Below are positions 42,797 to 47,000 of a DNA stretch of 64,000 bases, in pieces. The first letter of the stretch is position 1, and each line of letters starts with the position of its first letter. This DNA is from Yersinia ruckeri ATCC 29473. GTDB lineage: Bacteria; Pseudomonadota; Gammaproteobacteria; Enterobacterales; Enterobacteriaceae. The stretch is from the NCBI RefSeq assembly GCF_000754815.1, contig NZ_KN150747.1:1953908-2017907 (forward strand), read 5' to 3'. A program made the position numbers and the translations under genes. The notes under the pieces were generated by a model. It saw only the letters and a list, made by a program, of their open reading frames with translations, was not told the origin of the DNA and did no database searches.

Positions 42797-43321
42797 ATGA
42801 AGAAAATTGCATGTCTTTCAGCAGTAGCAGCTTGTGTGTTAGCAGTAAGCGTCGGTAGTGCATTTGCAGGCGAAAGCACCGTTACTGGTGGTTATGCCCA
42901 GAGCGATTTACAAGGTGTTGCTAACAAAGCTTCAGGTTTCAACCTGAAATATCGTTACGAGTGGAGCGATTCCCAGTTGGGCGCTATCGGTTCTTTCACT
43001 CACACTGAAAAAAGTTCTTTCGGTGATAAAGACAGCGCTTACAACAAGGCTCAGTACAACGCAATTACTGCGGGTCCAGCTTACCGTATCAACGATTGGG
43101 CTAGCGTTTATGGCGTAGTCGGTGTGAGCTATGGTCGTTTCACTCAGAACGGTCTGGCTAGTGACAACAAAGCAAGTTCAAGCGATTACGGCTTGGCATA
43201 CGGTGCTGGCGTTCAGTTGAACCCAATCAAAAACGTCGCGTTGGACTTCTCTTACGAGCAGAGCCGCATCCGCAGCGTTGACGTTGGTACTTGGATCGCT
43301 GGTGTTGGTTACACTTTCTAA
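42797..43321 (+). CDS. ompX: Outer-membrane protein X (Ail/OmpX family)
   Basis: Eight-stranded outer-membrane barrel, 174 aa. Signal peptide residues 1-23 (ending SAFA), mature start GESTVTGGYAQSDLQG. The conserved strands FNLKYRYEW, YNAITAGPAYRINDWASVYG and ALDFSYEQSRI match OmpX, and the protein ends VGYTF with a terminal Phe. In Yersinia the family includes the invasin Ail; this copy reads as the housekeeping OmpX by its position next to rhtA. The ATG at 42797 was chosen because it starts the signal peptide, with GAGG upstream. A terminator follows. Confidence 0.94.
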   Translation: MKKIACLSAVAACVLAVSVGSAFAGESTVTGGYAQSDLQGVANKASGFNLKYRYEWSDSQLGAIGSFTHTEKSSFGDKDSAYNKAQYNAITAGPAYRINDWASVYGVVGVSYGRFTQNGLASDNKASSSDYGLAYGAGVQLNPIKNVALDFSYEQSRIRSVDVGTWIAGVGYTF

Positions 43322-43376
43322 GTGTAGTTAGCCGCTAGGGTATTGGTTCTTTGGAACTCAGTACCCAATCCAATAA

Positions 43377-43401
43377 AAATCCGCCTCCGTGCGGATTTTT
43401 T
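43377..43401 (+). terminator. Intrinsic terminator after ompX
   Basis: AAATCCGC and GCGGATTT flank a short loop, followed by Ts. Confidence 0.88.
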
Positions 43402-43627
43402 CGTAATGGAAAACTTTTTAAGTTCAGTTAGTTATATTTTCATTCTTCATACGATGGGTCATCTTAAATAAGATAAAGTGCAAATTTATTTCAGCGGCAG
43501 CACTGATTTTTTAAAACCAACTTATTTTTATCTATGACTACTTTTTTCTAAATATTACTTAAACGACTTGCGAATGCCCGGAAAATTTTGGAAAGGGCGT
43601 GCTTTAATCACCGCGAAACAAATATGT

Positions 43628-43870
43628 ATGCAGTATCTCGTTTGGCGAGGCTCCTATACAAACACAGGTTACTGATCTGACGACATCGAGAGATGCCCAA
43701 GGTTAAGACAGGCTTTATCGGATTAAGGTTCAGCCCAAGGTAACTTCTGATGACATCATCAGATACGTTGTATAGTGCTAAAACCTGGACGCGGAGATAG
43801 GCAGTCTGCACTCCCTCTTTGGTTACCGCCCCTATGCGATCACTGTTGAAGTCTAAACAGATATAGGGAC
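43628..43870 (+). promoter_or_regulatory. M-box (ykoK leader) magnesium riboswitch controlling mgtE
   Basis: The leader carries the M-box core: CGTTTGGCGAGGCTCCTATA (43639-43658), then ACATCGAGAGATGCCC, AAGACAGGCTTTATC, and GTATAGTGCTAAAACCTGGA near 43770-43789. These blocks occur in the same order as in the B. subtilis ykoK element. A P1 helix is visible: TATCTC (43634-43639) with GAGATA (43794-43799). Downstream, GCCCCTAT (43828-43835) can pair with the Shine-Dalgarno region ATAGGGAC (43863-43870) or, by CCTAT, with ATAGG (43797-43801). That suggests translational shut-off when magnesium stabilises P1. Family match is strong; mechanism is inferred. Confidence 0.85.
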
Positions 43871-43874
43871 AATC

Positions 43875-44897
43875 ATGACTCATTCATTATCACACCATAA
43901 TACGCTATTAAAAACTGACGCTGATGCCTGTGAAGAAGCATCCGTGGCGGCTTATATGAGCGATAACTTTATTACCATTTCTGAAAAGCTGACGACGAAG
44001 GAAGCCCGCGATTATCTGCTTTCTCAGTTAAAGACCGATGAAATTCCTTCTCAATTATTTGTCACCAGCGATAATTGTCATCTGTGCGGCGTGCTGTCAG
44101 TAAAGAAACTACTGCAATCGATTGAACCAAACAGCCCGATTAGTACCATGATGAACCAAAGTTTTTTCCATGTTTCTCCCGATGATGAGCGTAGCCATGT
44201 CGCGCAGTTATTAAGTCAGGGTGGCGTTGATGTTGTGCCAGTATTAGCGAATTGGAGTTTGGTCGGTGTGTTGGGTGAAAAAGAAATTGCTCGCCTGGTC
44301 GAAGACGAAAATACCGAAGATGCTCAACGTCAAGGCGCCAGTTTACCGCTGGATAAACCTTATTTGAGTACCAGTTCATGGGAATTATGGAAAAAACGCT
44401 GTCCGTGGTTGCTGATGTTATTTGTTGCTGAAGCTTATACTGGCACAGTGATCAAAGCCTTTGAAGAACAGTTGGAGGCGGTTATTGCGTTAGCGTTCTT
44501 TATTCCCTTATTGATTGGTACTGGTGGTAATAGTGGTACGCAAATCACCTCAACCTTGATTCGTGCTATGGCGTTAGGCGAAGTCAGCCTGCGCAATGTG
44601 GGTGCCGTCATTAAGAAGGAAGTGACAACCTCATTGATGATTGCTGTGACTATTGGTGGCGCGGCTTGGGTGCGCGCCTGGGTTATGGGCGTCGGTACGG
44701 ATGTGACCTTGGTGGTGAGTTTGGCTCTGGTGGCGATTACCATCTGGAGTGCTTTTGTATCGTCCATTATTCCTATGATACTCAAGAAAGCCGGTATTGA
44801 TCCCGCCGTAGTTTCAGCGCCGTTTATCGCCACTTTTATTGATGGTACGGGGCTGATTATTTATTTTAAAATTGCTCAGGTCATATTGAATATATAA
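43875..44897 (+). CDS. mgtE: MgtE-family magnesium transporter lacking the N domain
   Basis: A 340-aa magnesium channel. Residues about 25-150 form a CBS-domain pair (MSDNFITISEKL...; VLGEKEIARLVEDENT). The five-helix membrane domain follows with FIPLLIGTGGNSGTQITST (the MgtE pore signature) and DPAVVSAPFIATFIDGTGLI. Typical MgtE is about 450 aa because of an extra N-terminal helical domain, which is absent here. The start is set by AGGGA 5 bases upstream. Control by the M-box just upstream is consistent with the substrate. A terminator follows. Confidence 0.92.
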   Translation: MTHSLSHHNTLLKTDADACEEASVAAYMSDNFITISEKLTTKEARDYLLSQLKTDEIPSQLFVTSDNCHLCGVLSVKKLLQSIEPNSPISTMMNQSFFHVSPDDERSHVAQLLSQGGVDVVPVLANWSLVGVLGEKEIARLVEDENTEDAQRQGASLPLDKPYLSTSSWELWKKRCPWLLMLFVAEAYTGTVIKAFEEQLEAVIALAFFIPLLIGTGGNSGTQITSTLIRAMALGEVSLRNVGAVIKKEVTTSLMIAVTIGGAAWVRAWVMGVGTDVTLVVSLALVAITIWSAFVSSIIPMILKKAGIDPAVVSAPFIATFIDGTGLIIYFKIAQVILNI

Positions 44898-45460: not shown

Positions 45461-45608
45461 AGCTTATGTCGAACGACAATCAGCATCTGTGCACCTTGAG
45501 CGTATAAACGGGATCATCATAATCCAAATATCCGATATTAAAATCGGAGAGTTTATTGTAGGTAATGTCGATAAATGTGGGCATTGCCGTTATTGAGTGA
45601 GTCGTAAA

Positions 45609-47000
45609 ATGCGAAATGAAAAACAAGATGTGGCTTGGAAATCAATGATTGCTAGTGGTTTACTTTCGATCGGAAAATTTGCCGTTGGGATATTCACCGG
45701 AAGTATTGGTCTTATTTCTGAAGGAATACATTCTCTTACCGACTTTATCGCCACTACCGTCACCTGGTGCGCAGTGCGGGTCAGTGATAAACCCGCCGAT
45801 GACGATCACCACTTTGGGCACGGAAAAGTAGAGAATATGGCGGCTCTGTTTGAAATTTTGCTGCTATTAATGGCCGCAGCTTGGATCGCCGTCGAAGCAT
45901 GGAAACATTTTTGGGGAGAAACCCAGCCGATTATTGCCGCGCCAGCGGTTATTCTGACGCTGATTATTGCGATGACGGTTGATTTTTATCGTGTCCGTGC
46001 CTTAAAACGAGTGGCCGAAAAAACCAATAGCACGGCGCTGGAAGCCGGTGCTCTGCATTTTCTCTCCGATATGATGTCGTCTGGAGTGGTTTTATTGGGC
46101 ATGGTATTTGTGTTGTTTGGCTACCCAAAAGCCGATGCGCTGGCAGCGATGGTGGTAGCACTGTTTATTCTGGTGACGGCAATAAGACTGGGAAAACGTT
46201 CCTTTAACACGTTAATTGATACCGCTCCGGTCGGTAAACAGCATGAAATTACTGCTTCATTAACCCGTTTTCCCGAGGTTATTTCCGTGGCTAAATGCCG
46301 GGTGAGAGATGCGGGAGCGATGTTGTTTATTGAAGTAACCATTATTGTTTGTCGGACATTGTCGTTAGAGCGTATTGATCAGCTTAAAAGTCACATTGCT
46401 AAAAACTTGGCTGCGGATTATAGCGATGCCGAAATAACTGTATTGGCCACACCGAAAAAAAGAAATGATGAAAGTATGGCAACCCATTTACGGGTTATTG
46501 CGGCCAACAATGACGTAGCGATCCATAATCTGACCTTGCAGCAATTGTCTTCGCATACGTCGATTAGTTTGGATTTGGAAGTGCCAGCTCATTTTAGTGT
46601 AACCCAGGCCGATGTGGTGGCGACCGCCATGAAATCAGCCATTAGAGACGAGATGGGCGCGGCAACCGAAGTCGATATTCATATTGAACCGCAGATCAAC
46701 TACTTGCTAAGTAGCGCGGATGTACCAAAAGCAGAACTCGTTACTATTCGCGAGGCACTATGCCAGTTGATGCAGCAAGACAGTATGTTGCGTGATATTC
46801 GCGACGTGAAAGCGAGAAATACCGATGTAGGTATTGTCGTCAGCTTTAATTGTATCGTACAACCTTTTATTTCTGTGATTAAAGCTCACTCGGCGATCGA
46901 TAATATCGAGATGAAACTTAAAGCGCTTTATCCGGCCATTTCACGCGTTGTGGGTTATGTTGAGCCAGGTGACATTGAGCCGGTTGAAGCTTTGCAATAG
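45609..47000 (+). CDS. Cation diffusion facilitator transporter with extended C-terminus
   Basis: A 463-aa cation efflux protein. The membrane half (about 1-205) has six helices, with the metal-site motif DDDHHFGHGKVENMAALFE and the second site ALHFLSDMMSS. The usual cytoplasmic dimer domain follows (about 210-285, including EVISVAKCRVRDAGAMLFIEVTI). Two further segments resemble that domain again: SISLDLEVPAHFSVTQADVV through VDIHIEPQ, and DVGIVVSFNCIVQPFISVIK to VVGYVEPG. Standard CDF proteins are about 300 aa. The metal is unknown; Zn, Fe or Mn are possible. ATG at 45609 was preferred over a GTG 12 bases upstream. Confidence 0.85.
   Translation: MRNEKQDVAWKSMIASGLLSIGKFAVGIFTGSIGLISEGIHSLTDFIATTVTWCAVRVSDKPADDDHHFGHGKVENMAALFEILLLLMAAAWIAVEAWKHFWGETQPIIAAPAVILTLIIAMTVDFYRVRALKRVAEKTNSTALEAGALHFLSDMMSSGVVLLGMVFVLFGYPKADALAAMVVALFILVTAIRLGKRSFNTLIDTAPVGKQHEITASLTRFPEVISVAKCRVRDAGAMLFIEVTIIVCRTLSLERIDQLKSHIAKNLAADYSDAEITVLATPKKRNDESMATHLRVIAANNDVAIHNLTLQQLSSHTSISLDLEVPAHFSVTQADVVATAMKSAIRDEMGAATEVDIHIEPQINYLLSSADVPKAELVTIREALCQLMQQDSMLRDIRDVKARNTDVGIVVSFNCIVQPFISVIKAHSAIDNIEMKLKALYPAISRVVGYVEPGDIEPVEALQ

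Follow-up and report, generated by a model that had tools for sequence, protein, structure and literature searches.

An M-box before mgtE in Yersinia ruckeri and a possible translational switch in the Enterobacteriaceae

The M-box and mgtE of Yersinia ruckeri

The leader of the gene mgtE in Yersinia ruckeri ATCC 29473 was analysed within a stretch of 64,000 nucleotides (nt) of contig NZ_KN150747.1 (positions 1,953,908 to 2,017,907 of the forward strand), hereafter called the window, to which all coordinates refer. A first-pass annotation, made from the letters alone, had recognised an M-box magnesium riboswitch here, with GAGATA at 43794-43799 as the right arm of helix P1, ATAGG at 43797-43801, CCTAT at 43831-43835, the Shine-Dalgarno (SD) sequence ATAGGG at 43863-43868 and the ATG at 43875, and all of these positions proved correct. 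The covariance model of the M-box, RF00380, run with cmscan, matched 43630-43803 at 143.7 bits (gathering score 44; E 1.7e-32), aligned in full (model positions 1-169) and above the curated cut-off; this was the sole match at or above the gathering score in the 64-kb window, and no second RF00380 match turned up in the 3.77 Mb genome of the strain, in a genome search for which the M-boxes of Bacillus subtilis, which were detected, served as the positive control. By these sequence tests the RNA is an M-box, and it would be expected to bind Mg2+. In a phylogeny-aware covariation analysis of 112 leaders, the five column pairs that reached E<0.5 all fell within the aptamer region and were 96-100% standard pairs. 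The M-box lies directly upstream of a short mgtE on the same strand: the open reading frame (ORF) at 43875-44897 matches Pfam MgtE at 107.2 bits and CBS at 41.9 bits, in agreement with the gene call of the annotation. No Pfam MgtE_N match was found in this protein at E 0.001, and TIGR00400 aligned with profile positions 132-448 at 225 bits, below its cut-off of 232.75. Among the 80 loci kept, the best relative was the MgtE of Yersinia nurmii, with 91% identity. The elements of the locus are the following:

43630..43803, plus strand: M-box (ykoK) aptamer; RF00380, 143.7 bits, E 1.7e-32
43634..43650, plus strand: strand a, 5' side of the aptamer base, UAUCUCGUUUGGCGAGG, proposed antisequestor; complementary to strand d across 28 leaders, with -10.1 kcal/mol in the window
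43785..43799, plus strand: strand b, 3' side of the aptamer base, including the P1 right arm GAGAUA at 43794-43799; aligned as P1 by the RF00380 model; pairs with strand c
43802..43826, plus strand: strand c, pyrimidine-rich, captures strand b (anti-aptamer hairpin); partner swap p 0.005; C/G excess of the expression platform plus start of the coding sequence
43827..43839, plus strand: strand d, anti-SD segment CGCCCCUAUGCGA, with the anti-SD CCCUAU at 43830-43835; anti-SD:SD partner swap p 0.003
43843..43860, plus strand: inner stem of the SD hairpin, CUGUU at 43843-43847 with AACAG at 43856-43860; from folds and alignment
43863..43868, plus strand: strand e, SD sequence AUAGGG, 6 nt upstream of the ATG; 6 base pairs (bp) with 43830-43835
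43875..44897, plus strand: mgtE, 340 amino acids, CBS and membrane domains; Pfam MgtE 8.8e-31, CBS 1.3e-10

On balance we lean, by no great measure, towards a model in which the M-box represses mgtE when Mg2+ is high, a double exchange of strands serving to hide the SD. At high Mg2+ the aptamer would fold, strands a and b would pair with each other, and the anti-SD in strand d would pair with the SD in strand e. At low Mg2+ the base of the aptamer would open, strand c would capture b in an anti-aptamer hairpin, and the anti-SD segment d would capture a, making the SD more accessible. Repression of an importer by its own ion is the usual logic of such control.

The SD hairpin and the anti-aptamer hairpin

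The comparisons draw on RF00380 matches in the same family, the Enterobacteriaceae, where the model was found at 87 places in 80 of 392 genomes and 34 of 154 genera. At 81 of these 87 places, the window included, an mgtE match lies downstream on the same strand (judged by position only); the six without one (L005, L008, L029, L039, L040 and L086) were omitted from the leader analyses. To these were added named loci with a related mgtE (L115-L188, 74 in all), 71 of which carry the 5' motif of the aptamer upstream by a simple pattern, among them loci from Yersinia, Serratia, Pantoea, Hafnia, Yokenella, Enterobacter, Lelliottia, Klebsiella, Raoultella, Citrobacter, Kluyvera and Kosakonia. After the three named loci without a pattern match and 14 without a start by the rule used had been set aside, 138 leaders remained, 112 of them unique; the distant relatives L189-L194 stand outside the set. 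In five Serratia leaders (L024, L118, L120, L122, L124) the start is a few bases out of register in the alignment. Most tests used 28 representatives, 16 from group B, eight from group A2 and four from group A1, which is the group of the window, and some were also run on 42; L035, whose start is misassigned and which had no SD in the folds of the 3' part, was excluded from the representatives.

In the window the anti-SD:SD helix (d:e) joins 43830-43835 to 43863-43868 through 6 bp, and the pairing of CCTAT with the SD put forward in the first-pass annotation recurs in relatives with matched changes, most leaders having CCCUAU/AUAGGG, L007 CCUCG/CGAGG, L050 CCCA/UGGG, and L002 and L032 CCCC/GGGG. 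Across the 28 leaders the anti-SD binds its own SD with a mean of -9.37 kcal/mol, as against -8.60 kcal/mol for the SD of another leader (p 0.003). The same partner swap reached p 0.00005 with 42 leaders, and swaps confined to groups gave p 0.016 (28) and 0.002 (42). The alignment of group B, alignment A1, has 92.3% of the d:e cells paired and no pair changed on both sides, and the covariation of d:e therefore comes from group A. CGCC is found within the strand d segment in 107 of the 112 leaders, and the inner stem of the SD hairpin is present in group A and absent in group B. A consensus scan of 43300-43960 found no intrinsic terminator, as the annotation had noted, although this absence is weak since shuffled sequences average only 0.7. 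Because the d:e helix is supported and the scan of the window revealed no terminator, the window leader is best read as a translational OFF switch; this fits the design that the annotation had suggested, with the d:e helix placed where a terminator would stand. In L007, L073 and L154 at least five U come directly after a strong SD hairpin, which could also act as an intrinsic terminator there.

The anti-aptamer hairpin (b:c) has at least four expected pairs in the free folds of 27 of the 28 leaders. Its partner swap gave p 0.005, and within groups p 0.088 (28 leaders) and 0.046 (42 leaders). On alignment A1, 3 of its 12 pairs carry a two-sided change, in one sequence apiece.

Proposed capture of the anti-SD by the 5' strand

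What would free the SD in our model is the pairing of strand d with strand a, and the computed complementarity of these two strands is above chance across the family. It averages -12.9 kcal/mol in the 28 leaders, as against -7.4 with shuffled d and -8.1 with shuffled a (0/300 as good in each case). When only the flanks of the anti-SD core were shuffled, 0/500 were as good as the real sequence in group B, 0/500 in A2 and 11/500 in A1. Partner swaps of a:d gave p 0.0005 overall, 0.0001 within groups and 0.0003 in group B alone, and alignment columns 10:223 are C-G in 42, U-A in 14 and unpaired in none of the 56 group-B leaders. Leaders of the Klebsiella/Enterobacter group show strong 5'-strand pairing of this kind; in the window it is weak and consists of two 4-bp blocks (43638-43641 with 43836-43839 and 43644-43647 with 43827-43830; -10.1 kcal/mol) with CCUAU in the loop between them.

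In folds of whole leaders the d:e helix stood at 0.71 with the aptamer forced and at 0.44 unconstrained, and in 13 of the 28 leaders the SD gained more than 0.1 in accessibility when the aptamer was absent, whereas none had a freer SD with the aptamer present. Forcing the aptamer removes competitors and so raises d:e somewhat; because locking it must have this effect by itself, the 28 leaders were also folded with dinucleotide-shuffled aptamers, 12 per leader, as the control. Real aptamers freed the SD more than shuffled ones (0.298 vs 0.214, p 0.0009), left less d:e (0.44 vs 0.62, p 0.002) and held strand d more (0.238 vs 0.153, p 0.026). The partner profile peaks at 43640-43645, on strand a, and a:d has at least four expected pairs in the unconstrained ensembles of 13 of the 28 leaders. 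Five of the seven best folds printed (L032, L051, L055, L060 and L067) show the whole exchange: P2 is closed, a is paired with d, and b is paired with c. The folds of L001 and L006 do not show it. Other pairings were tried and given up: neither AA with the SD (p 0.74) nor a hairpin that would close around the anti-SD loop (p 0.47) showed coevolution, and the P2 5' strand with the SD, as a general mechanism, gave own partners that were worse than swapped ones.

Weighing the exchange against other readings

Several observations weigh against the double exchange. The phylogeny-aware covariation test finds no significant pair in the platform (112 leaders, E<0.5), and the leader as a whole is no more stable than shuffles of it (z 0.01). 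Divided by group, the swaps of the 28 leaders gave for d:e p 0.024 in A and a null in B (p 0.17), for b:c no coevolution in either group alone (A 0.057, B 0.40), and for a:d none in group A (p 0.46). Own a:d pairing surpasses the row mean in just 14 of the 28 leaders. Over a span of about 750 nt, strand a finds its best partner in strand d in no more than eight of 28, and in the window seven other places in such a span pair better with strand a. The swap tests ignore kinship, and since the double change at columns 10:223 is a single event on the tree, in a clade of 14, their p-values are inflated by it. In the free ensembles d:e keeps at least four expected pairs in 15 of 28 leaders, and the SD released in L060 is half inside another hairpin. 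Folds that lack all of the aptamer except its last 20 nt hide the SD in either state (mean unpaired 0.07 and 0.05 over 76 leaders); this model of the 3' part alone omits strand a and shows no switch, and is kept as a record of what so short a model yields.

In the window itself the best free fold (-64.3 kcal/mol) hides the SD by pairing 43862-43868 with the P2 5' strand at 43652-43658, and joins the anti-SD to the P2 3' strand, a pairing that competes with a:d. This lowers the odds of the double exchange, of its independent evolution in the family and of a switch based on the P2 3' strand, and raises those of a leader that does not switch. Folds with d:e and a:d reach -62.6 and -61.7 kcal/mol, at a forced cost of 1.7 and 2.6 kcal/mol, and they cannot be separated from the best fold by energy, because the spread of 2.6 kcal/mol lies inside the error of the model. 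We infer the action of the family mechanism in the window from its relatives, because the P2-3' fold, d:e and a:d are nearly equal in energy there.

The annotation had assigned the role of antisequestor to the P1 right arm: without Mg2+, AUAGG (43797-43801) would capture CCUAU (43831-43835) and free the SD. This is improbable, and we disfavour it, since right arm and anti-SD show no overall coevolution (p 0.14) and the pairing, though present in the window sequence, costs 7.4 kcal/mol over the best fold when forced on the whole leader and 4.8 kcal/mol over the 5'-strand alternative. In the 3'-part folds of seven leaders it is 6.3-16.7 kcal/mol worse than the free fold, and strand b is occupied by the competing strand c in 27 of the 28 free folds. 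The equivalent helix of 7 bp is, to its credit, paired in 93.6% of cells on alignment A1 (44-68% when slid), with a covariation score there that only 4 of 500 shuffles reach, and in 23 of 28 leaders own partners are slightly ahead of the row mean; yet it shrinks to 4 bp in L006 and loses the C-G pair 175:223 in 14 of the 56 group-B leaders, where the 5'-strand helix keeps its pair by a double change.

A reading that is unlikely, though it deserves more credit, makes Rho-dependent termination the main mechanism: Mg2+ binding would free the pyrimidine-rich strand c, a possible entry site for Rho or RNase E, beside a start from which the SD hairpin excludes ribosomes, and Rho would load there. 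Such termination may also act together with the double exchange. In 21 of 26 leaders (26 of the 28 representatives) the highest 78-nt C/G window of the region made up of the platform and the first 100 nt of mgtE surpasses all those tested in the gene body, a lead only, as the comparison was with the mgtE body, and the leader was scanned at every base whereas the body was scanned every 26 nt. An association of SD hiding with Rho is given for the pe20 M-box of Mycobacterium tuberculosis (PMC12810186), but Rho alone does not explain the a:d complementarity. We consider it very improbable that the SD hairpin is a constitutive, non-switching element or that Mg2+ turns expression on. For a constitutive hairpin speak the models of the 3' part, described above, and the best free fold of the window, both with the SD hidden; when strand a is included, on the other hand, the absence of the aptamer leaves the SD more open in 13 of 28 leaders and its presence does so in no leader, and activation by Mg2+ would run against the usual logic for an importer. 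The least probable reading, in our estimate, concerns the Yersinia/Serratia/Pantoea group, in which the partner of the anti-SD at low Mg2+ would be the P2 3' strand (GUUGUAUAG, 43767-43775) with CUAUGCGAU (43832-43840), P2 opening as well. This pairing belongs to the best free fold of the window leader and has -9.2 kcal/mol in L001, L014 and L018. In that fold, however, the P2 5' strand covers the SD and translation would not be switched on, L014 prefers d:e in its free fold, and P2 stays closed in the best folds of the five leaders that show the exchange. As a general mechanism the pairing was rejected, having no coevolution over the 28 leaders (p 0.76).

Relation to known magnesium-sensing RNAs

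The M-box of Bacillus subtilis ykoK/mgtE (RF00380) was reportedly described by Dann in 2007. The mgtA Mg2+ sensor of Salmonella (RF01056) is a Mg2+-responsive leader of a transporter gene in the Enterobacterales; it belongs to a different RNA family, and the window has no RF01056 match at or above the gathering score. The M-box of B. subtilis belongs to the same aptamer family by the covariance model and also stands before mgtE. It works through transcription termination, according to two papers (PMC12810186; PMC12121620), whereas in the window an anti-SD:SD helix takes the place of the terminator and none was found in the scan. For the pe20 M-box of M. tuberculosis the 2026 report states that it is, to its authors' knowledge, the first M-box under translational control, that neither of its mapped stops was tied to an intrinsic terminator, and that an anti-SD hides the SD in the ligand-bound model (PMC12810186). 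The last of these resembles our proposal; in the window, by difference, the M-box precedes mgtE itself, and we favour the 5' strand as antisequestor. In translational riboswitches, as set out in a further source (PMC2258182), the ligand disrupts an antisequestor and the SD hairpin forms, with bases of P1 making the alternative pairing. The leader proposed here would differ from that sequestor/antisequestor scheme in that both strands of P1 are captured, by two separate downstream strands.

It is conceivable, and we hold this with somewhat less than even confidence, that the Enterobacteriaceae evolved a translational M-box independently of the mycobacteria, by a four-strand exchange with the 5' side of P1 as antisequestor. 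If this is true, a translational M-box conserved across many genera of the family would offer a tractable Gram-negative model, and would suggest that the same Mg2+ sensor has been re-wired more than once; a Mg2+-sensing RNA would here stand before a transporter without the usual N-terminal domain. The literature matches listed contain no description of an M-box expression platform in the Enterobacteriaceae, and that of M. tuberculosis is the one translational M-box among them; most subscription papers lay outside this search.

Distribution and neighbouring genes

Beyond the family, a draw of the order found RF00380 in 32 of 394 genomes and added one genus, from another family (f25, 19 genomes), and a draw of the phylum found it in 6 of 398 genomes, all of the same family as the window. 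The f25 leaders are outside the swap and shuffle tests, and their listing in the C/G test omits L112 as well as L091, which had come out in the wrong register. Of the 19 f25 leaders four were inspected, and no d-like partner for strand a stood out in them. By eye, the f25 leaders L088-L106 have the aptamer and a hairpin of the P1 3' strand with UCAUUUCC, and no obvious anti-SD:SD helix; the MgtE of L088, unlike that of the window, carries an MgtE_N domain.

Genomes G017 and G163 each carry two tandem copies of M-box and mgtE, with about 1.4 kb between the copies (L053 with L076, L059 with L070). Among the M-boxes that tblastn left without a downstream mgtE match (L029, L039, L040, L086 and L008), L008 keeps the leader and the gene start, followed by minus-strand ORFs that resemble a transposase, an anti-SD-like pair survives in L086, and in L029 a run of U comes after a stem, all judged by eye. 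The M-box of L005 (1501-1670, minus strand), with an anti-SD and SD of its own, precedes a porin gene (L005:167-1273, minus strand; Porin_1, 215.7 bits); a short ORF of about 28 codons follows its SD by eye, and the same genome has two further M-boxes, both before an mgtE match.

In the window mgtE is flanked by ompX upstream and by a gene for a cation diffusion facilitator (45597-47000) downstream, and a minus-strand ORF at 43608-43883 overlaps the coordinates of the leader. A gene that by eye resembles the cation diffusion facilitator is also found behind the mgtE-less M-boxes L039, L040 and L086, and for this reason the neighbourhood appears to outlast mgtE.
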